DNA of 64,000 nt from positions 41,614-105,613 of IMG/VR virus record IMGVR_UViG_3300025669_000020; one strand, written 5' to 3'. Shown here one piece after another: positions 2,922-56,593 of the stretch. Position 1 is the stretch's first letter. Each line of letters starts with the position of its first letter. Source of the stretch: a virus. The notes beneath the pieces are model-generated. The model saw only the letters and a program-made list of their open reading frames with translations, was not told the DNA's origin and did not search any database. A program made the position numbers and the translations under genes.

Positions 2922-3481
2922 AGGGTCCATCCGGTCTGCTGTCTGTGGCCAATTTCGACCAAGAGAACTTGAAAGAGCACACGCTTCTCCTGATGGAATT
3001 CCAGGTGAACCCGGAGACAGCTCCCTACCTTGTGTCCTCATCCGCATCCGTGATGTGGCTTCGCAGGGCTCATGGGGGTCGTGTGCGTGCCGCTGTCCGT
3101 GAGGTGTCTGTCTCTGATTACTACCGGGAGGTAGTGACAGAGGTGTACACCATGGGCACAGAGGCAGAGTGGGGCAACACTGCACCGCTGACCTTGGAAG
3201 GGGTGGAGACCTGTGTACAGCACTTGCACTCCTATGACCTGGCGAAGGTCACTGTGCTCTCCCACGAGGATGTCCCGTGGGAGTCCTGGGGAGTGCCTGT
3301 GGATGAGCCCTGGAACGGGGCCGAGATCGTGCTGACCTCTTGGATGCCACCTGGGATGGTGGTAGTCGTGCCAGAGGATCGCGGTTTTGTGGGGACCATC
3401 TGGAAGGTTGGGACACACAAGATCCTCTCTGTCATCCACAACGCCAGTCGTGGCATGGCCGTGGCTTGGGATGGGAAATGA
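2918..3481 (+). CDS. Hypothetical protein upstream of the primase
   Basis: A 187-aa protein. ATG 2918 is chosen because it overlaps the preceding stop (ATGA); the frame is open a little further up. No motif is recognised; it has many Trp and Val and no obvious membrane segment. Its own stop overlaps the primase start in the same ATGA fashion, so it is translationally linked to replication genes. Confidence 0.65.
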   Translation: MKGPSGLLSVANFDQENLKEHTLLLMEFQVNPETAPYLVSSSASVMWLRRAHGGRVRAAVREVSVSDYYREVVTEVYTMGTEAEWGNTAPLTLEGVETCVQHLHSYDLAKVTVLSHEDVPWESWGVPVDEPWNGAEIVLTSWMPPGMVVVVPEDRGFVGTIWKVGTHKILSVIHNASRGMAVAWDGK

Positions 3482-4206
3482 AAAAGTGGCTCCAGGAGAG
3501 AACCCGAGAGGCATTGGAACTCTCGGATGCCCTGGAGGGTCATCTCATGGGTCGGGGGATCAAGTACAAGACCATCAAGGACTTGTTCTTGGGAGAGTGG
3601 GGCAGGGACAGGGATGACGCTGAGACGGCACCTGACCCCGTGTTCCGTGAGCGGTACGGGCGGAAGGGTAAACCTCTTGCGGGCTCTCTGGTGTGCCCTC
3701 TGTTCAGCCCCAGGGGTTACCTGATAGGGGCGGAATTCCGTGCATGGCAGGGGCCAAAGGCTCTTTCCCGCTACCTCCTTCCTGAAGCGGCTTGGAACCC
3801 TATCCTGGTGGGGTTCCCGAAGGCGATGTCCAAGATATGGGATGGTGGGGATGTGTGGGTTGGAGAGGGCATCTTCGACATGTGTGCCTTGGAGCATGTC
3901 GTACCCCCACAGGATGCCCTGGTGGCTACGGTCAGAGCCAAGCTGACCAACAAGCACGTCGAGTTTCTGCGTCGGCATGTACGGGGGACGGTGTATATGG
4001 TCTATGATCGGGACGAAACAGGCAGGAGGGCGACAAAGGGGTGGGTAGATGACACGGGGAAGCGTCGTTGGGGGGCTCTGGATGTGCTGAACCGGGTAGG
4101 GGTCTCATGTAGGGATGTCCCCTACATCGGTGGAAAGGATCCCGGTGAAATCTGGGAGCGCTCTGGCACAGAGGGTCTCAGAGATGCTTTCGGCGGGATT
4201 TTCTAA
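3478..4206 (+). CDS. DnaG-like primase, TOPRIM catalytic domain
   Basis: A 242-aa protein; ATG 3478 overlaps the previous stop. The middle has a TOPRIM signature: VWVGEGIFDMCAL (acidic Glu after Gly), then YMVYDRDETGRRAT (DxD metal site) and GVSCRDVPYIGGKDPGEIW, the usual DnaG/Toprim ending. It should make RNA primers for replication. It is much shorter than DnaG (about 600 aa) and has no CHC2 zinc domain or helicase domain. The zinc-like Cys protein at 2361 might substitute for the former, which is inference. Confidence 0.75.
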   Translation: MKKWLQERTREALELSDALEGHLMGRGIKYKTIKDLFLGEWGRDRDDAETAPDPVFRERYGRKGKPLAGSLVCPLFSPRGYLIGAEFRAWQGPKALSRYLLPEAAWNPILVGFPKAMSKIWDGGDVWVGEGIFDMCALEHVVPPQDALVATVRAKLTNKHVEFLRRHVRGTVYMVYDRDETGRRATKGWVDDTGKRRWGALDVLNRVGVSCRDVPYIGGKDPGEIWERSGTEGLRDAFGGIF

Positions 4207-4221
4207 TTACGGGAGTCTGTT

Positions 4222-4725
4222 ATGGAAATGTGGAAGGCCAGCAAGGAAGTCGTGGATCGTGTTCAGGAGATGATCCGGGAATACCACCCTGACCTGGTGA
4301 TCGTCATGGACGAGATCGCCATCGTGTTCAAGGAGAAGGCTGCCAAGCGTGGTGGCAAGGTCATCCTGGGCAAGGCCAGCAAGGCGAACCCTTTGTTCTC
4401 CAGTGGTGTCCTCTCGGAGCAGCCCTGGAAGTTCATCATCGAGCTGCCCGCCGATGAGTGGGAGACCCTGGGCAACCGGAAGCAGTCGGCCCTCCTGGAC
4501 CGTCATCTGTGCGCGTGCCGCACCGAAGAGAACGCCGAAACGGGCGAGCTGAAGTGCAGCATCGCGCCTCCCGACGTGGCCTACTACTGGGATGAGCTGG
4601 ATCGCTGGGGCGACTGGCACCCCCGTGAGGAAGGCGACGAGGACAAGCCCAACATCATCAACGTGCTCTCGGGAGCCACCGATGGTGCAGCTGCCGTGGT
4701 CGTTGCTGAAGAGGCAGAGGAGTAG
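4222..4725 (+). CDS. Putative phage metallopeptidase (PF18894-like)
   Basis: A 167-aa protein. It has the linear features of the family annotated as putative phage metallopeptidase: an early LVIVMDEIAIVFK stretch, GGKVILGKASK, WKFIIELPADEWETL, then KQSALLDRHLCACR and a late SIAPPDVAYYWDELDRWG. The family lacks a classical HEXXH site; the HLCAC segment occupies that place. Substrate unknown. The last 15 residues are acidic and Ala-rich. Confidence 0.65.
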   Translation: MEMWKASKEVVDRVQEMIREYHPDLVIVMDEIAIVFKEKAAKRGGKVILGKASKANPLFSSGVLSEQPWKFIIELPADEWETLGNRKQSALLDRHLCACRTEENAETGELKCSIAPPDVAYYWDELDRWGDWHPREEGDEDKPNIINVLSGATDGAAAVVVAEEAEE

Positions 4726-6692: not shown

Positions 6693-7176
6693 GGCTCGTG
6701 TAGAAGAGGGGGACCTGGGCGGGGTCTTGCAGGATGCACTCAAGGTGGGGAAGAACCACCCTGTTTTCATTCCTGCAATGGTCTATGCACGGGGGAACCG
6801 TAGAGTGGTCATTCACTTGATGGAGGGGTACGCATTTATAGCCAGTGGCCTCCCAGATGTGGAGTATTTCAAGCTGGAGCATCATTGCCCCCATGTGCGG
6901 CAAGTCCTCACTGTAGAAGACCCTCACAAGATGCGTGTCCTCAGTGTGGTTCCCAACTCCAGCATTCAGGATATGCGACGCAGCCTGCACGAGCAGATCG
7001 CGTCCGACATCAAGAGGGGGATGCACGTGAACATCACAGAGGGGCTCTACTCAGCTCTGGACGGCGAGGTTTTGGAGGTGGGCGAGCAAAACGCCCATGT
7101 CCGTATCACCCTTCGATCCTTGGATTTGATAGTGCGGATCCCAAGGGTGTTCTTGTCTCCGGAGGATCCAGAATGA
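6625..7176 (+). CDS. NusG-like transcription elongation factor
   Basis: A 183-aa protein of about NusG length (180 aa). The N-terminal part fits an NGN domain (WVVLELTRTG start; VIHLMEGYAFIAS matching the NusG 'pgYvFv' strand). Residues about 132-175 fit a KOW domain (MHVNITEGLYSALDGEVLEV). NusG-type factors bind the RNA polymerase clamp and control pausing or termination. It sits between the clamp loader and a sigma-like gene, so phage control of host polymerase is plausible. Its stop overlaps the next start (ATGA). Confidence 0.7.
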   Translation: MPSNTDQRDEQTWVVLELTRTGEARVEEGDLGGVLQDALKVGKNHPVFIPAMVYARGNRRVVIHLMEGYAFIASGLPDVEYFKLEHHCPHVRQVLTVEDPHKMRVLSVVPNSSIQDMRRSLHEQIASDIKRGMHVNITEGLYSALDGEVLEVGEQNAHVRITLRSLDLIVRIPRVFLSPEDPE

Positions 7177-7787
7177 GTCGTAATTGGTGGTCAGGCCACA
7201 AAGTTATCGATCCCGCCGAAATGGAGGCACGCTTTGCCAACGAAGACGGGATGGCTTTTCTGGATGCCGTGGTCAATGAGGAGTTGTCCAAAGAAGGCCA
7301 GGAGATGCTGGATAGGGTGAAGGGTGTCCTGGACTCCCTCCCCGCACGAGAAGCAGACTTCATTGACCTCTACTACTTCAAGCGTCTCAAACAGACAGAC
7401 ATCGCTACCATCTTCAAGGTATCCCAACCCACTGTCTGCTACAGGCTCCAACGAGCAGCCCACCGCATCCGCTTCCTGTTGTCGCTCCCAGAGATTGAAG
7501 AGCAAGCCCTGGTCGATGCTGTGCAGGAAAACCTGGAAGACCCCCTGGACTCGAACATCATGGTGCTCATGTACCACACCACCTGCCAGTCCGAGGTGGC
7601 AAAACGACTCGGTGTCAGCCAGGGCCTGGTACGCCACCGCTTCATTCGTTCTATCGGGAGGCTCTCCAAGATCGAGGGCTTGGAGGACTATGTGGAGCTG
7701 TTCCAAGCCATCTCCACCAACCTGAACATCCTCCGCGAAGTTCAGCGCCCCACCTGGGGTGCCCAGGTCACGCATATCCTGGGGTAG
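7173..7787 (+). CDS. Sigma-70 region 4-like DNA-binding protein
   Basis: A 204-aa protein; ATG 7173 overlaps the NusG-like stop. Residues about 52-100 (LPAREADFIDLYYF...QTDIATIFKVSQPTVCYRLQR) match sigma-70 region 4 helix-turn-helix. A second helix-turn-helix follows at about 138-160 (SEVAKRLGVSQGLVRHRFIRS). Region 2 is not visible, so it may be a sigma-like activator rather than a full sigma factor, comparable in role to T4 gp55. Co-location with the clamp genes and a NusG-like gene supports a transcription role. Confidence 0.7.
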   Translation: MSRNWWSGHKVIDPAEMEARFANEDGMAFLDAVVNEELSKEGQEMLDRVKGVLDSLPAREADFIDLYYFKRLKQTDIATIFKVSQPTVCYRLQRAAHRIRFLLSLPEIEEQALVDAVQENLEDPLDSNIMVLMYHTTCQSEVAKRLGVSQGLVRHRFIRSIGRLSKIEGLEDYVELFQAISTNLNILREVQRPTWGAQVTHILG

Positions 7788-10720: not shown

Positions 10721-10749
10721 GCTGGCCTGGGTAGAACAGGGAGTCGCCC

Positions 10750-24339: not shown

Positions 24340-26983
24340 ATGCATCCCAACCACTACAGAGTCGCCCAGATGCACCTGGAAGCTACCAGCCACAAGAAGT
24401 CCATCGTCCTCATGACGTTCCTGGCAGACCTTGCCCGGAGCCTCGGGGTCGGTCGGCATGTCTACGTCGTGGGTGGGGCAGTGCGGAATTTCGTGATCGA
24501 TGAGCCCATCAAGGACATCGATGTGGTCATCGACTCCCTGGCTCTCGGGGGAGGCAGGGACTCCGAGTGGTTCGCCAAGAAGGTCGTCAAGGCCATCCCC
24601 GTTCCCGTCAACATGGAGACCAACCAGTACGGTGTGGCCCTCCTCCATGTGAAGGGGGACTGGATTCTGGATGGGGACAACCTCAAGGGTGAGGACATCG
24701 AGATCGCCAACGCCCGCAAAGAGTCCTACGGCGGGGCCGAAGGGAAGGGCTACCGAGCCCCACATGGTAGAGCCCGCGACCATCGAGGAAGATGTGGTTC
24801 GAAGGGAATTCACCTTCAATTGTGTTGCGGGGGACACCCTTATCCCCACTGCGCAGGGCATTCTCCGAATCGATCAAATTGCTTCCCGTGAGGTTGGGGA
24901 TCAACAGGACATTCAAATCATGGTGGCAGGGCAGGAGGGTCCTGCTGAAGCTGTGGGGTGGCAGTACAGTGGGTTTGCTCCTACCTTGAGGGTAACAACG
25001 GGGTGGGGTCACACCCTCTCCTGTACGCATCACCATCCATTTCTGGTCCTTCGGGGGCATGGCCATGAGTGGATACAGGCGGATCAGCTTGATGAGGGGG
25101 ATCTGCTTTGTGTGCCTGTGCAGCAAATGATCCGTAGTACCTCATTGATCCTGGGGTTACCTGATCCTCCGAAACCCCGGACAGGTAAACTCAAGGAGGG
25201 GGTGGTAAAACCTGATGTGATGACACCTGAGCTGGCATTCGTGATCGGGTGTGTGGTGGCCGAAGGATCAAACACCCCTACTCGGGTCTCTTTCAGCAAT
25301 TCAGACCCCGCTTTCATTTCCCGGTATATCGAGTGCTTCAACGCTGTGTTCGGGTTCGTGCCCTCACGGAACAAGGTGGTTGAGAAGGGTTCTGTCCGTA
25401 CCCTGCGAGGTGTGGATTTTGTCGCCACTGCTGATGGTTACGACATCCTCGCTAACAGCAAGGCTGTGGTAGGATGGCTGCAAGACCTCGGCCTTTATTG
25501 CGGGGGATCCAAGGGGGGGAAATCTGCATCCCACCACAAGGTTGTGCCGTGGTCTATCCTCCAAGCCGACGAACAGAGCCAACGAGCGTTCCTTGCAGCT
25601 TATCTGGAGGGGGATGGGTGTCTCCACCACACGGGTCGCATCACATACTGTTCGGCATCTCATCAGGTGCGACAGCAGTTGCAGGTGCTTCTGGGCTCCC
25701 ACGGCATCTTGTCCAAGGTTAAGGACAGGTTCGTGTACATCAATGCTGTGGATTCCTCGCGGCTATGGGAGAAGATTCATCCGTGGATGGTCACCAAGAA
25801 ATTCGACTACACAGGCCGCGTGTTCAAGAGCCGCAACCGTTATGGCATTCCAGTGGACTACATTGCAGGGTTCCTCTCGGGCCGTAGACAGGCATCAGCG
25901 GGTAAGGCAGGGGTCGCCTACACAACAGATTCCGGGGATGCACAACCCCTTCGTGGGATGCACGACCCTGTCCGGTTAGTTCGCCGTCTTCTCCATGACG
26001 CATATGCTCGCGGGGATTTCAACGATTTCCTGGATGGTCTTAGGGTCATTAGTCCCAAGGAACACCTCAATCTCCAACGGTTGTTTGATCTCAGCTACCA
26101 ATATGTAGAGGTCACCTCTGTAGAAGATGCGGGCAAACAGGATGTATTCGACATCTCGATGGAAGAGGGGATGGAACCTGCATTTGTGGCGAATGGGGTG
26201 GTAGTACACAACACCCTCATGTGGCGGCTGCACGACCTGGCCCGAGGGCCGGACAAGGCAGAGATCATTGACCTCACCGGGTGCGGTCTGCGGGATTTGA
26301 AGAACCGCGAGCTGCGGTGCCCCTCGGACCCCGACAAGACCTTCTCGGATGACCCGACACGGCTGCTCCGTGTGGTCAAGTTCACCACGAAGTACGGGAT
26401 CAAGATTCCTGCTGACGTGAAGGCTTCCATCAAGCGGAATGCCCCCAAGCTGCGGAAGGCACCTCACAGTGCCCTGTCCAACCTGCTGATCAACACCGTG
26501 CTGGTGGAGCCATACGCCAAAAAGGCTCTCCATCAGATGAAGGACTTGGGTCTGCTGGACGTGCTGGCAGACATGGTGCGAGAGGTGAAGCCTTTCAGGG
26601 AGGCACTGCAGAGCTGGGTGTCCAACCAGCGGGTGCTCCTGATGTTCGACATCATGGACGTGGGGCTTCCCATGAACACCCCCATCGGGTGGCTGGACAA
26701 GGACCAGCAGAAGCGTCTGCGGGAGATCGCCCTTGGGATGGAGCCTGGTGAGGCCACGAAGTTCCTGGCTGTTTTGAAGCAGACTGGAAAGCTCTGGGGG
26801 GACAAGACCTTCTTCCACACCCTGGCTCAAGAGATGGGTGTAGAGCGGACTGGGATGGCAGTGTTCGGCAAGGCTCTTCAGGAAGTCGCCCGTGACATCA
26901 TTCTGTTTGACCCGACTCTGGCGTGGAAGCCCAAGGATATGCGGCAGTGGGCCCGTGAGCGGATGCGGGAAAAGCGGTTCTAG
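24340..26983 (+). CDS. CCA/poly(A)-polymerase-type nucleotidyltransferase, intein-split and frameshifted
   Basis: The head domain reads from ATG 24340 (VYVVGGAVRNFVIDEPIKDIDVVID has the GG and DxD motifs) to about 24753, then continues one base ahead (+1) as EPHMVEPATIEEDVVRREFTFN. An intein (24821-26212) interrupts the conserved RRxFTxN motif. The C-extein resumes TLMWRLHDL, then IDLTGCGLRDLKNRELR and FSDDPTRLLRVVKF, as in tRNA nucleotidyltransferases. Residues 6-17 carry an RVA-type tag (YRVAQMHLEATS). The HD partner follows at 27077. Product: tRNA CCA repair or another nucleotidyl transfer. Confidence 0.75.
24821..26212 (+). mobile_element. Intein with LAGLIDADG homing endonuclease
   Basis: 464 codons from Cys (TGT 24821) to Asn (AAC 26210-26212). 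Block A is CVAGDTLIPTAQGILRIDQI; block B includes the THHHPF histidine stretch. The endonuclease has two LAGLIDADG-like helices (LAFVIGCVVAEG and FLAAYLEGDG). The end is DVFDISMEEG...FVANGVVVHN, followed by Thr as the +1 extein residue. It inserts in the active-site motif of the nucleotidyltransferase, a usual choice for inteins. All splicing residues look intact. Confidence 0.9.
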
Positions 26984-42473: not shown

Positions 42474-43349
42474 ATGAGCAACGTATCCAACGCTGCAAAG
42501 CAGCAGATCATCTCCGAGTTCATCAAGACCCCCCAGGGTCGCGCTAAGCTCGCAGCCTCGATGACCCAGCCTCTGCGCCTCCGCCGGGACTACACCGCAG
42601 TCGGTCGTAAGACCTTCCTCGTGGAACAGCTCCCTGACGGCGCACTGCCCATCTACGACAAGGACCCCGATGTGACGGCATACGTCGTTGGTGAAGAAGG
42701 CGAGAACATCCTCGCAGTCACCAAGCCTCGCCGTGTCATCTTCCCCCTCTTCGAGATCGCATCCAACCCCGAGATCCCGCTCACGCAGATCAAGGAACGT
42801 CGGTTCGACCTCATCGAGCGCGCCCAGGACTTGGCCCGTGCCCAGATCCAGGCAGCAGAAGACGAGCGTGTCTTCGCAGTGCTCGACAGCATCGCCACCA
42901 ACGGCTTCGACTCCGTGGCTGGCGGCACCAACCCTGACATCCCCGTGGTCGCTCCGATCTCTGGTGCTGTCCTGGCTGATGCCTTCGCACTGATCGAGCG
43001 TCATGACCTTCATGTCGCTCGCGTGTTCATGAACGCTCGGGACTACGCGGACCTCCGCAAGTTCGGTCGCGACATCCTGGACATCGAATCCCAGCGCGAT
43101 TTGTTGAAGACCGGCCTGATGGCAACCCTCTGGGGAGCACAGATCATCGTCAGCCGCCTCGTGCCTGTCGGAACGGTCTATGTGTGTTGCGAACCGGAAA
43201 TGTTCGGCCGCATCCCCGTTCGCATTGAGCTGACAGTTCTCAGCGCAGACGACCCGAAGGCTCGCACCATCGGCTTCTCCTGCTTCGAGAACCTCGGTAT
43301 CGGCGCGTTCAACCCCCGTGGTCTGACCCGTCTGACGATCACCCGTTAG
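42474..43349 (+). CDS. Major capsid protein (HK97 fold)
   Basis: A 291-aa protein. The build fits small HK97-type capsid proteins: helical N-terminus, E-loop-like strands (VGRKTFLVEQLPDGALPIYDK), long spine helix (RFDLIERAQDLARAQIQAAEDERVF split by turns) and P-domain ending. Codon use is highly biased toward C-ending codons, fitting high expression. A strong terminator follows. It is the best capsid candidate; no direct motif proves it. Confidence 0.75.
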   Translation: MSNVSNAAKQQIISEFIKTPQGRAKLAASMTQPLRLRRDYTAVGRKTFLVEQLPDGALPIYDKDPDVTAYVVGEEGENILAVTKPRRVIFPLFEIASNPEIPLTQIKERRFDLIERAQDLARAQIQAAEDERVFAVLDSIATNGFDSVAGGTNPDIPVVAPISGAVLADAFALIERHDLHVARVFMNARDYADLRKFGRDILDIESQRDLLKTGLMATLWGAQIIVSRLVPVGTVYVCCEPEMFGRIPVRIELTVLSADDPKARTIGFSCFENLGIGAFNPRGLTRLTITR

Positions 43350-43544: not shown

Positions 43545-44696
43545 ATGGCATCTGACAAAACAAACACACCTAAAGTATATGGGGCTTTCCGCAGGGTGGT
43601 CACACCAGAGGTCTTGCGAAAGCTGTATTTGGAGCAGAATGATGCCGAGATCGCTGCCCTCTATGGTGTCTCAGATGCCCTGGTCTCCCGGTACAGAAAG
43701 CAGTGGGGGATCCAAACACTGAATCCCAGACAACGAAGGGACCAAGTACGGGAAGCACAGGGTTTGCCCACAATTGAGGATCTGACACCTGTGGTCCTTG
43801 CAGACATCTATTCCAGAATGGGGGATGCCCAGATCGGGAAGATGTATGGGGTGAGCAAGCCTGTGATCGTGAGGTTGCGGCAGAGGTGGGGTATCCACAC
43901 CTTGACCAAAACACAGAGGGCTACACAGGAGGGGCCTTTGTCAGAGGGGCAGCAGGAGACATTGATAGGTGTTCTGCTCGGGGATGGACATGTCACAGCA
44001 CGGGGCTCTTTTCAGGTGGGGCACTCCCATTCCCAGGTGGGGTACGTCCACCATCTGTATGACCTGTGGGCTCCTTTGAGCAGGCCTGTTCAGTTTGGGG
44101 AGAAGATCATGGACAGCGGCACTGTGGCGTACACGTTCCTTCTGCGGACAGCACCACACAAATGGCTCCAGTACCTTCGCAAGCTGTTTTATCCACAGGG
44201 AGTCAAGGTCTTCCCAGAGAGCATCCTGACACACCTGAGTGCCCGGTCCTTGGCCTACTGGTACTTTGATGATGGCCACTTGGATTCAGGGTTGCCTTCA
44301 ATTGCACTGGGGGACATCACGGTAGCCGCTGCCGATGATGTGGCACGGCGGGTAGGGAAGCGGTTTGGGTTGGATGCCTACATCCGCCCACAGTCCACAG
44401 AGACCTGTAAAATCCTCGGGGTGCGAGCTGGGAGTACGGATCTGTTCTTTTCCCTTGTCCGCTCTTACCTGATCCCCGAGATGGCCCACAAGTACCCTGC
44501 CAAACAGCGTCCCGTGGGCACTGTTCCTGTACGCCCCCGCTTGACATTGGAACCTGTGAAGATGCCCCTAGACCTGACAACACGCTCCAAAGAATGGGGG
44601 CATCTGGGAGAAGAGGGGCAGGAGCATCTGTTGGATGATCTGGTGGCTTTCTGGCACCAGCAAGGGTTTCCGTACCGTTTAACAAAACTTAGGTGA
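43545..44696 (+). CDS. Free-standing LAGLIDADG homing endonuclease
   Basis: A 383-aa protein. Two N-terminal helix-turn-helix units (about 34-57 and 94-117, each xxIAxLYGVSxxLVxRxRxxWGI) would add DNA binding. Two LAGLIDADG helices (LIGVLLGDG 140-148, LAYWYFDDG 236-244) carry the catalytic acids. It has its own promoter and lies behind the capsid gene, a common site for homing genes. The last codons (KLR stop) come from the end of the IS element, so the natural C-terminus may be lost. Confidence 0.85.
   Translation: MASDKTNTPKVYGAFRRVVTPEVLRKLYLEQNDAEIAALYGVSDALVSRYRKQWGIQTLNPRQRRDQVREAQGLPTIEDLTPVVLADIYSRMGDAQIGKMYGVSKPVIVRLRQRWGIHTLTKTQRATQEGPLSEGQQETLIGVLLGDGHVTARGSFQVGHSHSQVGYVHHLYDLWAPLSRPVQFGEKIMDSGTVAYTFLLRTAPHKWLQYLRKLFYPQGVKVFPESILTHLSARSLAYWYFDDGHLDSGLPSIALGDITVAAADDVARRVGKRFGLDAYIRPQSTETCKILGVRAGSTDLFFSLVRSYLIPEMAHKYPAKQRPVGTVPVRPRLTLEPVKMPLDLTTRSKEWGHLGEEGQEHLLDDLVAFWHQQGFPYRLTKLR
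44686..44696. repeat. Left terminal inverted repeat of the IS element
   Basis: aacttaggtga; exact inverted copy at 46867-46877. It overlaps both the TnpB stop (44689-44691, minus) and the endonuclease stop (44694-44696, plus). Confidence 0.7.
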
Positions 44697-45990
44697 TCCT
44701 ATGCTCTGTTACCGTCTCTTGCGAGATCGGCCCCCGGTCTGACTCTCCCCGAAGGGAAATGCCGGGTTCCTGCTTCACCGAGGTCTGCCTCCGTATCGCA
44801 AGCGATACGGAAGGTCTCACGTCCTCTCCACAGGCGTTTTTAGTGAGGTCCGACGAACTGGCGGCCCTCAAGATGTTGATCGCAGCATTGAGGTCAGCAT
44901 TGGCCTCGTGCCCGCAAGACAAGCAGCAGAACTCGCTCTGCGAAGTCCGATTGTCCTTCTCGACGTGCCCACACGCTGAACACCGCTGGCTGGTGTAGTG
45001 GGGTGGAACAGCCACGACTTCACAGCCGTAGAGTTTCCCTTTGTACTCCAACAACCTACGGAACTCCCCGAAGGCGGCATCCAGCACGACCCGGTTGAGG
45101 CCACGTTTTCGCGAGCCTCCCCCAGCCGTCATGTTCCGCACCTTCAAGTCCTCGATCACAACCTTGCCGTGGCTTTTGGCAAGCATAGTCGTGGCCTTGT
45201 GGAGTACATCACGTCGAACATTCCGAACCCGAGCATGGGCACGGGCGAGCTTCGCCCTAGCCTTGCCCCGGTTCTTCGACCCCCTCTTCTTTCTGCTCAC
45301 CTCCTGTTGAAGCCTCTTGATCTTCTTTTGCCCTTTCTGGAGGGCTCTCGGATTCTCGATGACCGTCCCGTCCGACAAGGCAGCCAACCGAGCCACGCCG
45401 AGATCCAGTCCCACAGGGGGGTTCCCGTTCGGCACTGCCGCTCCCACAACTTCGGGCCCGACGACGGAAACGAACCATCGTCCTGCCTTCTCGGTCACAG
45501 AGACCTGAGCATGCTTCCCCCATGGGAGGTAGCCACGCTCTCCCGGCTGGAACTTCACCTTCCCGATGACTGGGAGCTGGACGGTCCTGTGATCAACCTT
45601 GATGGTGCCGGTCAGGCGGAACCCGCCGACGCCCCTGCTCCTCGACTTGAACCTTGGGTACTTGGCTCGTCCTGACAGGAAGTTCTTGAAGGCCCGGTCG
45701 AGATCACGAAGGGCTTCCTGCGGTGCCGCTTTGCTAGCCTCGTACATCCAAGGGATGCCGCCCTCTTCGGGGCTGGCTTTCTTCAAGACGTTGAGGTCGC
45801 GGTGGAGAGAGATGGCGTTCAGCCATCCTTTCCACTTCTTCGGCTTGCCCTCAGTCACCCATTGCTCGTAGGCGTCCCGATGCTGACGGAGCCCCCAGTT
45901 ATACGCCCACCGAGCGTTGCCCGCATGTTGGAGAAGGGCCTGCCTCTGGCGAGGAGTCGGCCTGATCTCCGCTCGGTAGGCGAGCCTCAC
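44689..45990 (-). CDS. tnpB: TnpB RNA-guided endonuclease
   Basis: A 433-aa protein of usual TnpB length. GTG start overlaps the TnpA stop (GTGA). RuvC motifs are complete: VGLDLGVARLAAL (Asp), KVVIEDLKVRNM (Glu) and ANADLNAAINIL (Asp). The zinc finger between the last two has CSACG and CLSCG pairs. TnpB cuts DNA guided by an omega RNA made from the right end of the element and so preserves the transposon at its site. Residues after the last RuvC motif overlap the predicted omega RNA. It looks active. Confidence 0.9.
   Translation of the reverse strand: MRLAYRAEIRPTPRQRQALLQHAGNARWAYNWGLRQHRDAYEQWVTEGKPKKWKGWLNAISLHRDLNVLKKASPEEGGIPWMYEASKAAPQEALRDLDRAFKNFLSGRAKYPRFKSRSRGVGGFRLTGTIKVDHRTVQLPVIGKVKFQPGERGYLPWGKHAQVSVTEKAGRWFVSVVGPEVVGAAVPNGNPPVGLDLGVARLAALSDGTVIENPRALQKGQKKIKRLQQEVSRKKRGSKNRGKARAKLARAHARVRNVRRDVLHKATTMLAKSHGKVVIEDLKVRNMTAGGGSRKRGLNRVVLDAAFGEFRRLLEYKGKLYGCEVVAVPPHYTSQRCSACGHVEKDNRTSQSEFCCLSCGHEANADLNAAINILRAASSSDLTKNACGEDVRPSVSLAIRRQTSVKQEPGISLRGESDRGPISQETVTEHRIT
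44791..44810 (-). ncRNA. Hairpin of the likely omega RNA at the tnpB 3' end
   Basis: Perfect ccgtatcg/cgatacgg stem with a 4-nt loop inside the tnpB 3' coding end; a second ccctt/cgggg element lies near 44748. Omega RNAs of TnpB overlap the gene 3' end and run to the element end (44686), so the guide would be the sequence just below 44686. Extent not determinable here. Confidence 0.45.
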
Positions 45991-46628
45991 TGGTCGGCCT
46001 CGACTTCTGCCTTCGCTCGTTTCCGGTTTTCGGCTGAGCGTCGCCCGTAGATACGAGCGGAGAACGATGCCATCAGCGAGAGGATGTCTTCGACAAGCTC
46101 CTCCTGATAGGACTTCCCGAGAGTCTCCTGTACCCACTCGATCTCGACGCCGTGGCTGTCGAAGTAGGCCGCGAGGAGGCCACCTCCGAACCGGGAAAGC
46201 CGATCTTTGTGTTCGACCACCACCCGGTCGATCTTGTGTTCGTTGACGAGCTTGAACAGCTTGCGGAGTCGAGGGCGGTTCTCCGACATGCCCGAGCCCA
46301 CGTCTTCCAGGACGGCGACCAGCTTGTAGCCTTGTTTGACACAGTGGGTCGTGACCCGCCCGACCTGACGTTCTAAATCGCCTTTCTTCTTTTGGTCGTG
46401 GCTGCTCACCCGACAGTAGATGGCGGCACGAACCTCGGTGGCTCCTTCCCCTGACACGTCTTGCCCTTGTAGAGCCTCGATGACCGAGAGCTTGTAGCGA
46501 CGGTGGTTCCCAAGAGTTCGTTCGGCCACTAGGCGGCCTTCCTCGTCCCAACGACGTAAGGTGTCGGGATGGACACCGAGCATCTCTGCTGCGGCACGGA
46601 CACGGAGGAGTCGGTCAGCCTTCGGCAT
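45987..46628 (-). CDS. tnpA: IS607-type serine recombinase (TnpA)
   Basis: A 213-aa protein. The N-terminal MerR-like helix-turn-helix (LLRVRAAAEMLGVHPDTLRRWDEEGR) is followed by a resolvase-type catalytic domain starting AAIYCRVSSHDQ, where the Ser after RV is the nucleophile, and including DRVVVEHKDRLSRFG. It catalyses excision and insertion of the element. ATG 46628 gives the standard MPKADRLLRV start; the frame is open further upstream. Stop overlaps the tnpB GTG. Confidence 0.9.
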   Translation of the reverse strand: MPKADRLLRVRAAAEMLGVHPDTLRRWDEEGRLVAERTLGNHRRYKLSVIEALQGQDVSGEGATEVRAAIYCRVSSHDQKKKGDLERQVGRVTTHCVKQGYKLVAVLEDVGSGMSENRPRLRKLFKLVNEHKIDRVVVEHKDRLSRFGGGLLAAYFDSHGVEIEWVQETLGKSYQEELVEDILSLMASFSARIYGRRSAENRKRAKAEVEADQ

Positions 46629-46815
46629 CGGACTCCCCGTCGGGACCGAGAAGACCTTCTGCCTGGAAGACGGAGTGCCATCGGTCGTACCACTCTTGGA
46701 ACTCCTCGACGGTCGGCACTTCATCTTTGTCAAAGGGGATCGCGTGCGGGACGGTTCTTCCATCCTCGGTCTTGAATTCGGTTTCGGTGACTTGGGTGAT
46801 CACGGTCGGGGCCAT
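46615..46815 (-). CDS. Small acidic ORF upstream of tnpA
   Basis: A 66-aa protein with an ataggag site before its ATG and a 14-nt overlap with tnpA. It is acidic with two Trp (EFQEWYDRWHSVF). It lies inside the element, so it may be an accessory gene that couples tnpA translation. Not recognised. Confidence 0.45.
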   Translation of the reverse strand: MAPTVITQVTETEFKTEDGRTVPHAIPFDKDEVPTVEEFQEWYDRWHSVFQAEGLLGPDGESDAEG

Positions 46816-46931: not shown

Positions 46932-48107
46932 TTACCCTCGCACAAGGTAGCGGCGTGCCCAGCCGGGCTTGCAGGACTCGTCCTGTTCCAGCATGGTGGC
47001 CTTGACCCACAGGGTGTTGGCGTAGCGGTTGCGGTTCTTGGTGTTGTCCACGGCGATGCCCACGAGCCCATCGCTCAGGCGGAAGAAGAAGGCCAGGCCC
47101 TCGGCTCCAGCGTTGGCACCCTCAGTGATTCGCACCCAGGCATTCTTGGGGATGTCCGTGGCGGCTTCCACCGCTGCCTCGCGGGCAACCTCGCGGGCGT
47201 CGGCACGGCGCTGGCACTCAGCCAGGATATCCAAGGCCCACTGCGGGCGGGCATCCCAGCCTTCCTCATCTTCGAGGACGGCCCACAGATTGTCCACTCC
47301 GCTGCTGGTTTCCGTGTCCACGAACACGAGGTTCATGCGATCCTGGGCGGTCTTGGAACCGTCCACGGAGATGCCCACGCGGCCCCCTTCCTGACTGACC
47401 CACAGCACCAGCCCTGACATACCCTTGGGGAACTTGCGGGAGCGGGGGTTGATGCCCTTGACCCAGGAGCCCTTCACGGGGGCGTGTTGTGCCTTGTAGG
47501 TGTCCTTGAGCTGCCGGATGTAGCGGCTACGGCGGTGGGCGAGGTCACGGGCCTTCTGCCACGCTGCATATGCTTCCCGCACTTCGGGGGTAGCGTCGGG
47601 GGTGGCGCTGTTGGGGTACGTCCATCCACGGGTGGAGGCGTAGATGAAGGTGTCGATGCCGTCACCGTCCCACACACCCACGGTGAAGTCGGAGTCATGG
47701 TAGCCGTTCCGCTCGCCCGTGTGGAGCACGAGGCCCACATGGGAGGTTTCCATGTAGAGGGGGCCCATGGTGCGGCAGGCTTCCGTGTAGCGGTCAACCT
47801 TGGTGGGCTGGCCCTCAGCGTCCAGCACCCATTCGCCGTCAGCGTTGACCTGGGCGTCGTACCGGCTTTCCTTGTGGTAGCGGGTCAGTACACACTCAGG
47901 GGTGAGGGTCAGGTCGGCACCGGCACGCCGGGTCTTGGAGTGGGCGCAAAGGCGACCGTGATGGACACCTTCTTCATGTCCATGGTAGTTGGAGACTCTC
48001 TCCACCTTCTTGCCGTTGACGAGCCCACGCTCGTCGGCCTCACCCGCCGCGACGGCGGCATTGTAGGCTTCGTAGGTAGCTTCATTGGTCATTTGACGGA
48101 CGGCCAT
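46932..48107 (-). CDS. Reverse-strand hypothetical protein, 391 aa
   Basis: Start MAVRQMTNEATYEAYNAAV with a ccggag site. No domain recognised. The middle (residues 120-170) has HSDFTVGVWDGDG-like Asp/Gly strands and aromatic residues. Two related segments (around 230-260 and 325-365) contain GLVLWVSQEGGRVGISVDGSKT and FFFRLSDGLVGIAVDNTKN, an internal duplication of a small beta unit. High C/G third positions like the capsid genes. It is transcribed away from the hairpin-rich gap 48108-48965. Confidence 0.65.
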   Translation of the reverse strand: MAVRQMTNEATYEAYNAAVAAGEADERGLVNGKKVERVSNYHGHEEGVHHGRLCAHSKTRRAGADLTLTPECVLTRYHKESRYDAQVNADGEWVLDAEGQPTKVDRYTEACRTMGPLYMETSHVGLVLHTGERNGYHDSDFTVGVWDGDGIDTFIYASTRGWTYPNSATPDATPEVREAYAAWQKARDLAHRRSRYIRQLKDTYKAQHAPVKGSWVKGINPRSRKFPKGMSGLVLWVSQEGGRVGISVDGSKTAQDRMNLVFVDTETSSGVDNLWAVLEDEEGWDARPQWALDILAECQRRADAREVAREAAVEAATDIPKNAWVRITEGANAGAEGLAFFFRLSDGLVGIAVDNTKNRNRYANTLWVKATMLEQDESCKPGWARRYLVRG

Positions 48108-48108
48108 T

Positions 48109-48137
48109 TTGTTTTCTCCGGTGAGGACACCTATACT
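48109..48137 (+). promoter_or_regulatory. Possible divergent promoter for the hairpin-rich region
   Basis: ttgttt (48109-48114), 17-nt spacer, tatact (48132-48137) on the plus strand. The 12-mer tatactacgcag (48132-48143) occurs again at 51874-51885, also upstream of a reverse-strand gene, so it may instead be the promoter or operator of the minus gene. Confidence 0.4.
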
Positions 48138-48853
48138 ACGCAGGCTCCTTCAGAAATGAACCAAAAAGAATCTGATCTTTTTTGTTGCGCGATCTAGCCG
48201 GCCGGTTATTTAGCGGGGGCCTGGAAACAGGTTCTCTTTGAAGGCGCAAAAAAGCAACCTCATCCCAACCGGGAGACAGGACGTACCGTGAACCCGCAAG
48301 GGGGAGTGGAAGCGGCCCAGACCCAGGGGGAGATGAGGAGGCAGTGTCCTCCACGGCACATTTCGGGCTGACCCGCCAGGGTTTCAGTAATTAAGAAGTG
48401 TGTTGACAGAGGGCCTTTGGCGGAGTCCTCCAATCCGCCCATTTCGGAATCCATAGGCCATGGGTTGTGAAAGGGCAAGAGCGGGAGACAGAAGTCAAGG
48501 CACGTTGCAAGGGTAAGGAAAAGGGTTCGTGTGCTCTCACCAGTACGGAACCCTTGGTGAACCCCGCGTAGCAAGCTGTCCCAGGATAAGAGTCTACAGC
48601 TCTTGTCGGCGGTCATGTCTGTAGGACATGGTAGGTGTACCTGGACGCACCATTGGTCTGGTAGTGAGGTGTTAGGAGTCCGCTGCTCCCTTGAACGACA
48701 CCAAAATGGAGTCCCGACAGGTTGATAAACCGAGAAGGGCCCCGACCCCCCAAACCTTCGGGTAGAAGGGGAGGCAAAAACGCAGTTCCGACCAAATTGG
48801 GTGCCCCGTGGCTAACGCTTCGGGGTGCTTCAATTTGGGGGGCTGCGGTTTTT
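48138..48853 (+). ncRNA. Candidate large structured RNA, about 0.7 kb
   Basis: No convincing ORF in this stretch (48108-48965). It has many short stems: cctg-gaaa-cagg (48220-48231) and ccc-gcaa-ggg (48293-48302) with GNRA loops; ggcgga/tccgcc (48419-48424, 48434-48439); aagggttc/gaaccctt (48521-48528, 48548-48555); catgtc/gacatg (48614-48619, 48625-48630); ccttc/gaagg (48755-48769); and a long 3' hairpin ending in T5 (48776-48853). A promoter-like pair lies at its 5' side. Large phage RNAs such as GOLLD or ROOL have this style, but family membership cannot be decided by eye. Confidence 0.45.
48776..48853 (+). terminator. 3' hairpin and T-run of the candidate RNA
   Basis: Outer stem aaaaacgcag / ctgcggttttt (48776-48785, 48843-48853) with one mismatch or bulge, inner stem ccaaattg / caatttgg (48792-48799, 48831-48838), then gccccg / cggggt. 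The run of five T at the end resembles intrinsic termination. Confidence 0.5.
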
Positions 48854-48965
48854 CAATTGTGTTTGTCTAAGGGGGGTGCTCAGTGATGTTATGGGGGTAG
48901 CTCTCTGTTATGATGACATTCCTTGGCCCTTCTGAAGGCGTCCCCTGCGTGATTGTGGAGCTTGC

Positions 48966-49331
48966 ATGTCCGATTTCCATAGCCGTTACCGAAACACCCC
49001 CACATTGGAGTGCTCCTCTGGAACGGCAGGTGGGGATATTTGGAAGCGGTACTATGAGGATCTGTCTGTTGGTGAGCGGGCCACAATGTTGTTGTGGGCT
49101 CGGATGTACTTGCGTCCGATCAAGACCACAAACTGGCATTGTGACTGTGCTGTCATCAAGGAGCTGTTCGAGGGTAGCTCTGACGGCTTCAAGGTGACCG
49201 TCGACATGGTGCGGGGTGCACTGCTGGAATCTGGCTACACTCCCCATGATCACCGCCGTAAGCTCTGGTACTACAATGTGGGCCAGCGTGGTCTGAATGC
49301 CATGAAAAAGGAGTTGTCCAAGGGGGTCTAG
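48966..49331 (+). CDS. Hypothetical protein, 121 aa
   Basis: Start preceded by gtggag. Contains IWKRYYEDLSVGERATMLLWARMYL and a late winged-helix-like segment (VTVDMVRGALLESGYTPHDHRRKLWYYN). Could be a small DNA-binding protein, but no family is recognised. First gene after the hairpin-rich region. Confidence 0.6.
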   Translation: MSDFHSRYRNTPTLECSSGTAGGDIWKRYYEDLSVGERATMLLWARMYLRPIKTTNWHCDCAVIKELFEGSSDGFKVTVDMVRGALLESGYTPHDHRRKLWYYNVGQRGLNAMKKELSKGV

Positions 49332-49380: not shown

Positions 49381-50550
49381 ATGTCTAAAGCGCAATTCAC
49401 TGAGAAGGAACAACAGGTTTGGGATAGCCTCCAGGGCACTCTGGGTAATGGTCTCACTACCTGGCAGCAGGAGAACATCGTCCGTGACTTGGATGTGTTG
49501 TTCGGGCTGCGACCCACCTACATCAACCTGGGTGGCAAGCTCGTGGGGTACGACTGGGATGTGTACAGTCGGAACGTGCACATCAGGGACGGGTTCTGCA
49601 CCGCGTACTACCATCCGCGGGACTGTGGTGTCATCACAGGAAGCAGCCCTGACAACTGGGGACAGTGGGCCCGCCTCCTGTTCGGGAAGAAGTCCCATGC
49701 CCATTCCCCCCGTCTGAGTCTCCCCCAGGATCTCTACCAGATGCTGCGGGACAGGGGCTACGCCAAGGTAGATGGTCCCCGTCGCCCCCATCGGTTCCTG
49801 TCTGTGGCCATGGTGTCCTTCTACATCGCGGCACAGACCGACGCATGGGACACCCCCCAGCAGATCGCCATGATGAGCGACATGAAGAAGATGCTGAAGC
49901 TGCACCGTGTCCAGGTCATCGACCTCGTGGTCAATGATGAGGGCGTTCAGCGGGTGCTGTCGGGTCCTCCCAAGGCAGACATCCTGGGTGCCTCCCCTGC
50001 CCCCATCGCCCCCTCTGGTCCCATCGCCCCCTCTGGTCTCATCGTGGTTGACTTGTTGGCTGATGAGATCAAGCTGCGCCGGGATCGGGAGCAGGCTGCC
50101 CATGTCGCCCTGGCATCCTTTGTGGATGATGTCACGGGGCCAGTGGCAGCCCAGGCACCGGAGTCCAGCCTTCTGGATCTCCTGGGTAGCAACGAGCCCC
50201 TTCTCCTGGATGAGCGGGACGATGCCGTGCCTGTCCCCAACCAGGACATCCAGGACTTGTTGGGGGGTTCCCCCGCTGTGGAACAGGACGACATCCCCAG
50301 TGAGTCCCTCCAGATGGATCTCAGCCAGATGAACCCCCAGCAGCTCCAGGAGATGGTGACAGCCATGGAGCAGGAGCTGGAGAAGCGCAAGATGGCAGAC
50401 ATGGAGAGCTACTGCTCCAAGGCTATGATCACCGAGGGTGCCATCAACCCCATCCTGCGGACATATGAGACCCTGACGGTGCGCTACCCTGATGGGACAT
50501 GTCAGGAGTACGAGAGGGTACGGGAGAACCTCCTGCGGGATATCGGGTAA
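49381..50550 (+). CDS. Hypothetical protein, 389 aa
   Basis: ATG 49381 has aaggag 8 nt upstream; an upstream GTG at 49360 overlaps that site and is rejected. The N-terminal 170 residues look globular (YDWDVYSRNVHIRDGF). The middle has a short APIAPSGPIAPSG repeat, then an acidic helical region with Leu-rich segments (SSLLDLLGSNEPLLLDE, IQDLLGGSP). No function recognised. Confidence 0.6.
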   Translation: MSKAQFTEKEQQVWDSLQGTLGNGLTTWQQENIVRDLDVLFGLRPTYINLGGKLVGYDWDVYSRNVHIRDGFCTAYYHPRDCGVITGSSPDNWGQWARLLFGKKSHAHSPRLSLPQDLYQMLRDRGYAKVDGPRRPHRFLSVAMVSFYIAAQTDAWDTPQQIAMMSDMKKMLKLHRVQVIDLVVNDEGVQRVLSGPPKADILGASPAPIAPSGPIAPSGLIVVDLLADEIKLRRDREQAAHVALASFVDDVTGPVAAQAPESSLLDLLGSNEPLLLDERDDAVPVPNQDIQDLLGGSPAVEQDDIPSESLQMDLSQMNPQQLQEMVTAMEQELEKRKMADMESYCSKAMITEGAINPILRTYETLTVRYPDGTCQEYERVRENLLRDIG

Positions 50551-51885: not shown

Positions 51886-51941
51886 AATAGGAGGATTCTG
51901 AATCTCTTGGGTAGAGTAAGGCGATCTCCTAGGAGGAATAT

Positions 51942-56559: not shown

Positions 56560-56593
56560 CCTCCGGGTAGTAGATGAACAACTCACCCGGAGG
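56560..56593 (+). promoter_or_regulatory. Hairpin that hides the ribosome site of the 56599 gene
   Basis: cctccgggt (56560-56568) pairs perfectly with acccggagg (56585-56593). The ggagg of the right arm is the ribosome site, 5 nt before ATG 56599. Folding would block translation, so the element may be a control switch. Confidence 0.55.

Follow-up and report, generated by a model that had tools for sequence, protein, structure and literature searches.

A candidate lineage-specific structured RNA in the largest non-coding gap of a phage record

The gap and its neighbours

The window analysed here is a stretch of 64,000 nucleotides corresponding to bases 41614-105613 of a virus record 105,613 bases long. 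The major capsid protein encoded at 42474-43349 shares 87% identity with that of LR745208, a 485-kb uncultured phage, 39% with that of Bacillus phage G, and approximately 90% with proteins of many environmental viral contigs, and because of these identities the record most likely represents part of a huge-phage genome. Reading rightward, the capsid gene is followed by a LAGLIDADG endonuclease gene, an IS607-type element with a resolvase and TnpB, a gene for a 391-aa protein, the gap studied here, and then further genes. This interval is variable, differing among relatives of this phage. At 43545-46815, the LAGLIDADG gene, which comes after the capsid gene, and the TnpB gene overlap at their ends, and the window has a mobile-element hotspot here, adjoining the capsid gene.

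Two further observations were made in the surroundings. At 24764-26983 on the + strand, an intein that contains a LAGLIDADG domain (Pfam Intein_splicing and LAGLIDADG_3) is encoded in a gene that by eye looks like a tRNA nucleotidyltransferase, an identity for which Pfam gave no confirmation at the cut-off used. The contig of one relative (L041) carries several tRNA genes within large non-coding stretches beside its capsid gene, at 1096-2160 and 3022-4306, whereas ARAGORN detected no tRNA genes anywhere in the present record, inside or outside the window.

The gap itself, 48108-48965, is 858 bp long, has no gene on either strand according to a codon-usage gene call, and exceeds every other non-coding gap in the whole 105.6 kb record. 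The next largest gaps within the window measure 480, 357 and 228 bp, and all of those in the other 41.6 kb are below 300 bp. The first-pass annotation, made from the sequence of this region, had described it as a large gene-free stretch, and this description holds; it had also named a conserved ORF across the region, beside a lack of covarying stems in alignments, as an observation that would speak against a structured RNA, and no such ORF was seen. The four spurious ORFs inside the gap have no PHROG relative, and a coding remnant was rejected as the best reading. With regard to the neighbouring genes, searches of viral contigs and phages found no relatives of the 121-aa protein or of a 389-aa protein, and for the 391-aa protein they gave only partial matches, all in other phages. 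The second largest gap, the 480 bp at 6693-7172, lies between a gene resembling a DNA polymerase III clamp loader and a sigma-like gene; it folds weakly on both strands (z approximately -1.9 and -1.8) and has a promoter-motif match at 6695 (+). The coordinates of the features in and around the gap are collected in Table 1.

Table 1. Features of the gap and its flanks in window coordinates; all RNA elements are computational predictions, and p is that of the predicted helix.
Feature	Coordinates	Strand	Remarks
Divergent flanking gene	46932-48107	-	391 aa; PHROG 30881 over residues 119-198
Candidate promoter of the RNA itself	47980-47995	+	Motif score 12.2; inside the divergent gene; weak
Structured core, multi-branched, with domains A-D and flanking hairpins	48126-48673	+	Predicted; z -5.54
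Closing helix, 5' arm	48126-48146	+	Predicted; partner 48655-48673; p 0.90-0.97; shares bases with the divergent gene's - strand promoter
Promoter motif CCTGCGTAGTATAGGT	48129-48144	-	Score 13.4; points into the 391-aa gene 46932-48107
Hairpin, palindromic GGCC loop	48195-48208	+	Predicted; p 0.87
Hairpin, 9 bp, GAAA tetraloop	48215-48236	+	Predicted; p 0.99
Domain A	48258-48338	+	Outer helix p 0.99; GCAA tetraloop tip 48293-48302
Domain B, 11-bp stem	48346-48414	+	p 0.99; GCCA loop tip 48372-48381
Domain C	48415-48500	+	Tip hairpin 48448-48466, p 0.98; loop AGGCC (second GGCC)
Domain D	48504-48572	+	Stem 48521-48555; inner stem p 0.99, outer p 0.34
Hairpin	48585-48607	+	Predicted
Hairpin	48614-48630	+	Predicted
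Closing helix, 3' arm	48655-48673	+	Predicted; partner 48126-48146
Hairpin, GAUA loop	48720-48731	+	Predicted; p 0.99
Intrinsic terminator	48776-48853	+	A5, hairpin 48781-48847, T5 48849-48853; strong; putative 3' end of the RNA
Downstream flanking gene	48966-49331	+	121 aa; PHROG 9576

A strand-specific predicted fold with excess tetraloops

On the + strand, the segment 48120-48890 folds at -318.2 kcal/mol with a z of -5.08, a value that no shuffle equals, and on the - strand the same segment has a z of +0.06. Overall, z values for lengths of 735-771 nt run from about -4.3 to -5.1 on the + strand and from -0.3 to +0.1 on the - strand. When 735-nt windows were scored, in a scan covering 60 of 112 jobs, the region on the + strand was the best of the 59 scored (z -4.29, with a + strand background mean of -1.29 and standard deviation of 1.34). 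One coding window of this length reaches z -4.22, however, so z alone is not conclusive, and this window counts against a structured RNA, as does the modest stability of 240-nt windows inside the region (z -1 to -3.2).

The predicted core has a z of -5.54 on the + strand and -0.66 on the - strand. With its closing helix and the terminator left out (48147-48654), z is -3.66 and the fraction of well-paired positions is 0.378, versus 0.155 in shuffles, none of 25 of which equalled it. The closing helix that would join the ends of the core is weak evidence for an RNA because an equally good end-to-end duplex arises in 2.5% of shuffles and at 4.9% of genomic places.

The loops of the predicted structure also set the region apart from its background. 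Four of the 14 hairpins on the + strand end in GNNA tetraloops, compared with 0.42 +- 0.59 in shuffles and a mean of 0.38 in 61 other windows, and neither any of 60 shuffles nor any of those windows reaches four. Strict GNRA loops number two, versus 0.33 in shuffles, of which 2 in 60 have as many, and the adenine fraction at unpaired positions, 0.436, is matched by none of 60 shuffles and by one of the 61 windows. None of the other long gaps tested, either in this phage or among its relatives, joins strand asymmetry with an excess of tetraloops. Folding energy and its asymmetry between strands, together with the tetraloops and the A-rich loops, give good support on the + strand to the earlier proposal of a hairpin-rich candidate structured RNA. 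The specifics of that proposal recur in our prediction: both GNRA-closed stems (GAAA and GCAA) are present, alongside several stems of 6-11 bp with p >0.95, and the 3' stem-loop ending in T5 is borne out by the hairpin and T5 run of the terminator. The terminator region 48776-48860 has a z of -6.39, and a separate site search also placed a terminator-like site there. Two hairpins carry GGCC in their loops; these are the sole loops with a four-base complement among the loops, and each is self-complementary.

Given that the coding window mentioned above folds nearly as well, one might regard the region as a non-functional spacer or a decayed insertion whose fold is due to chance, lying as it does in a hypervariable interval by the capsid gene with its LAGLIDADG gene and IS607-type element. 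The variability of this interval among relatives and the restriction of the region to the present lineage would both fit such an origin. We nevertheless consider it unlikely: decay gives no strand-specific stability, tetraloop excess or A-rich loops, and a protein remnant, looked for via PHROG, was not found.

An element acting at the DNA level, such as a replication origin, a packaging site or a regulatory region, appears very improbable. The region does hold the 391-aa gene's divergent promoter and a palindrome at 48188-48215, but there are no iteron arrays, with only two short two-copy repeats present, and a DNA element would not favour folding on one strand only. For these reasons, the absence of iteron arrays and the single-strand fold bias, a DNA origin was rejected as the best reading.

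Promoters, termination and the downstream gene

Intergenic regions of this phage contain a recurring motif of the type CCNGGGTAGAA or CTGCGTAGTATA, also given as GCGTAGTATA and GNGTAGNA, which mostly lies 17-57 nt before gene starts and is probably the promoter of the phage. Its sites include 48129-48144 (-), 51906-51921 (+), 56562-56577 (+) and 10726-10741 (+), among others, and only 19 positions in the record score above 12. The phage's own sigma-like protein, a sigma-70 region 4 protein encoded at 7173-7787, perhaps reads this motif.

A promoter-like element had been reported at the 5' side of the region, and for the + strand this part of the first-pass annotation was not confirmed. A search of the 5' side for a sigma-70-like site on the + strand found none, and the TATACT at 48132-48137, which resembles a + strand -10 box, points the other way; because it is the reverse complement of the recurring motif GCGTAGTATA, present there as a - strand copy, the element most likely belongs to the divergent 391-aa gene. 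The motif match that could serve as the RNA's own promoter lies inside that gene, and other matches in coding DNA equal its score. If transcription were to start after about 48144, the closing helix could not form. We infer both that the region is transcribed as one unit and where its transcript would start. Transcription would proceed rightwards, opposite to that of the 391-aa protein gene, and would stop at the strong intrinsic terminator at 48781-48853, before the gene at 48966.

The position of the region directly upstream of a co-directional gene, with the terminator ending 112 nt before the gene start and only a weak promoter-motif match (5.9) in between, also suits a 5' leader, long and structured, or an attenuator for the genes from 48966, in which the terminator would be conditional and the upstream fold would sense a signal in the manner of a riboswitch. 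We assign this possibility a low probability. The next gene, at 49381, has its own copy of the motif just upstream (TTGCGTAGTTAGTA), leaders in this phage are short given the usual distance of the motif from gene starts, and no riboswitch or leader family was matched in Rfam.

Known RNA families, relatives and a possible role

GOLLD is an RNA whose expression is raised during phage lysis and for which proximity to a tRNA island is typical, not obligatory, and ROOL is a large structured phage RNA that forms a homo-oligomeric cage. Both are phage or prophage RNAs, often found near tRNA islands, that form cages; many GOLLD RNAs exceed 800 nt, the ROOL cage has kissing loops, and OLE, another RNA, possesses a symmetric kissing loop in which the four innermost bases vary between palindromes, GGCC among them (PMC12286853). 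OLE occurs in extremophilic bacteria (PMC11332333).

We scanned Rfam 15, as had been suggested earlier, both at the gathering threshold and at E<=10, and obtained no relevant match, only sub-threshold chance matches. Neither GOLLD nor ROOL was matched even at E<=10, and the OLE covariance model likewise gave no match at either setting. Thus, of the resemblance to GOLLD and ROOL noted at the outset, the likeness in size and style stands, but membership does not. GOLLD, whose model covers the conserved 3' region, was rejected for lack of a covariance-model match and of any tRNA in the record, and ROOL for lack of a match and of a tRNA island. Group I and group II introns were also rejected: at E<=10 Rfam matched neither a core nor domain V, and the region lies between two complete divergent genes.

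The candidate is similar to GOLLD in being phage-encoded, large and ornate, a single unit without an ORF; in contrast to GOLLD, it is somewhat shorter at approximately 550-730 nt. With ROOL it shares its nature as a predicted large structured RNA encoded by a phage, and its GGCC loops could conceivably kiss, whereas its predicted layout is unlike that of ROOL. OLE is likewise a large ornate RNA, and the two GGCC loops predicted here recall it, a likeness that is suggestive only; its occurrence in extremophilic bacteria sets OLE apart.

Searches for relatives returned the present lineage. By blastn and nhmmer over capsid loci, the sole relative is one near-identical contig (L002/L006) with 2 differences in 9354 bases, none of them within the RNA. 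Of the other hits, a match of 26 bp in L051/L055 falls inside an ORF, and in L083 a weak nhmmer match falls within an endonuclease ORF; both were rejected. The gap of LR745208 at the corresponding place (L083:24770-25392) was also dismissed, its fold being no better than chance (z -1.0). No relative of the region was found by blastn in phages and plasmids, and no homologue by a DNA search of the whole records of 31 relatives; two covariance models (157-158 nt) run over 32 records, our own included, matched only the region itself. The remaining loci gave sub-threshold matches only, the best with E of about 0.1. Exact-pattern scans, of which four covered viral contigs and a fifth genome contigs, recovered only the phage's own species and isolated matches of 16-29 bp, those in genome contigs being within coding DNA, and the use of neighbouring proteins as bait recovered its own species only. 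The collections searched thus contained a near-identical copy but no diverged relative in which stems could covary, and this counts against a structured RNA.

Taking these lines of evidence together, we consider it probable that a stand-alone, lineage-specific structured RNA of several domains is encoded on the + strand from about 48126 or 48147 to 48853. The region has what large structured phage ncRNAs have, namely a long gene-free stretch, a stable strand-specific fold and a terminator, and the best reading of the predicted structure is a large structured phage ncRNA forming its own family. This RNA may work like GOLLD and ROOL but belongs to neither. Our leading guess as to its role, a tentative one drawn by analogy with those two RNAs, is that it would act through its fold, as a scaffold or in assembly, and not via pairing with a target. 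The two self-complementary GGCC-loop hairpins would then be natural candidates for a kissing contact, either within one molecule or between molecules. A bolder proposal, and one we hold to be rather unlikely, is that the RNA represents a new class among large phage RNAs, with no sequence relationship to GOLLD, ROOL or OLE, and that its compact multi-domain body self-associates via its two palindromic GGCC loops.

With a compact size of approximately 0.55-0.73 kb and a terminator at its end, the candidate RNA would be suited to chemical probing and cryo-EM. To our knowledge, few classes of large structured phage RNA have been described. If the proposal of self-association is true, an RNA associating through GGCC loops would mean that RNA-only assemblies arose independently one more time in phages, and another unrelated RNA of this kind in a huge-phage lineage would suggest that phages have evolved such RNAs repeatedly.
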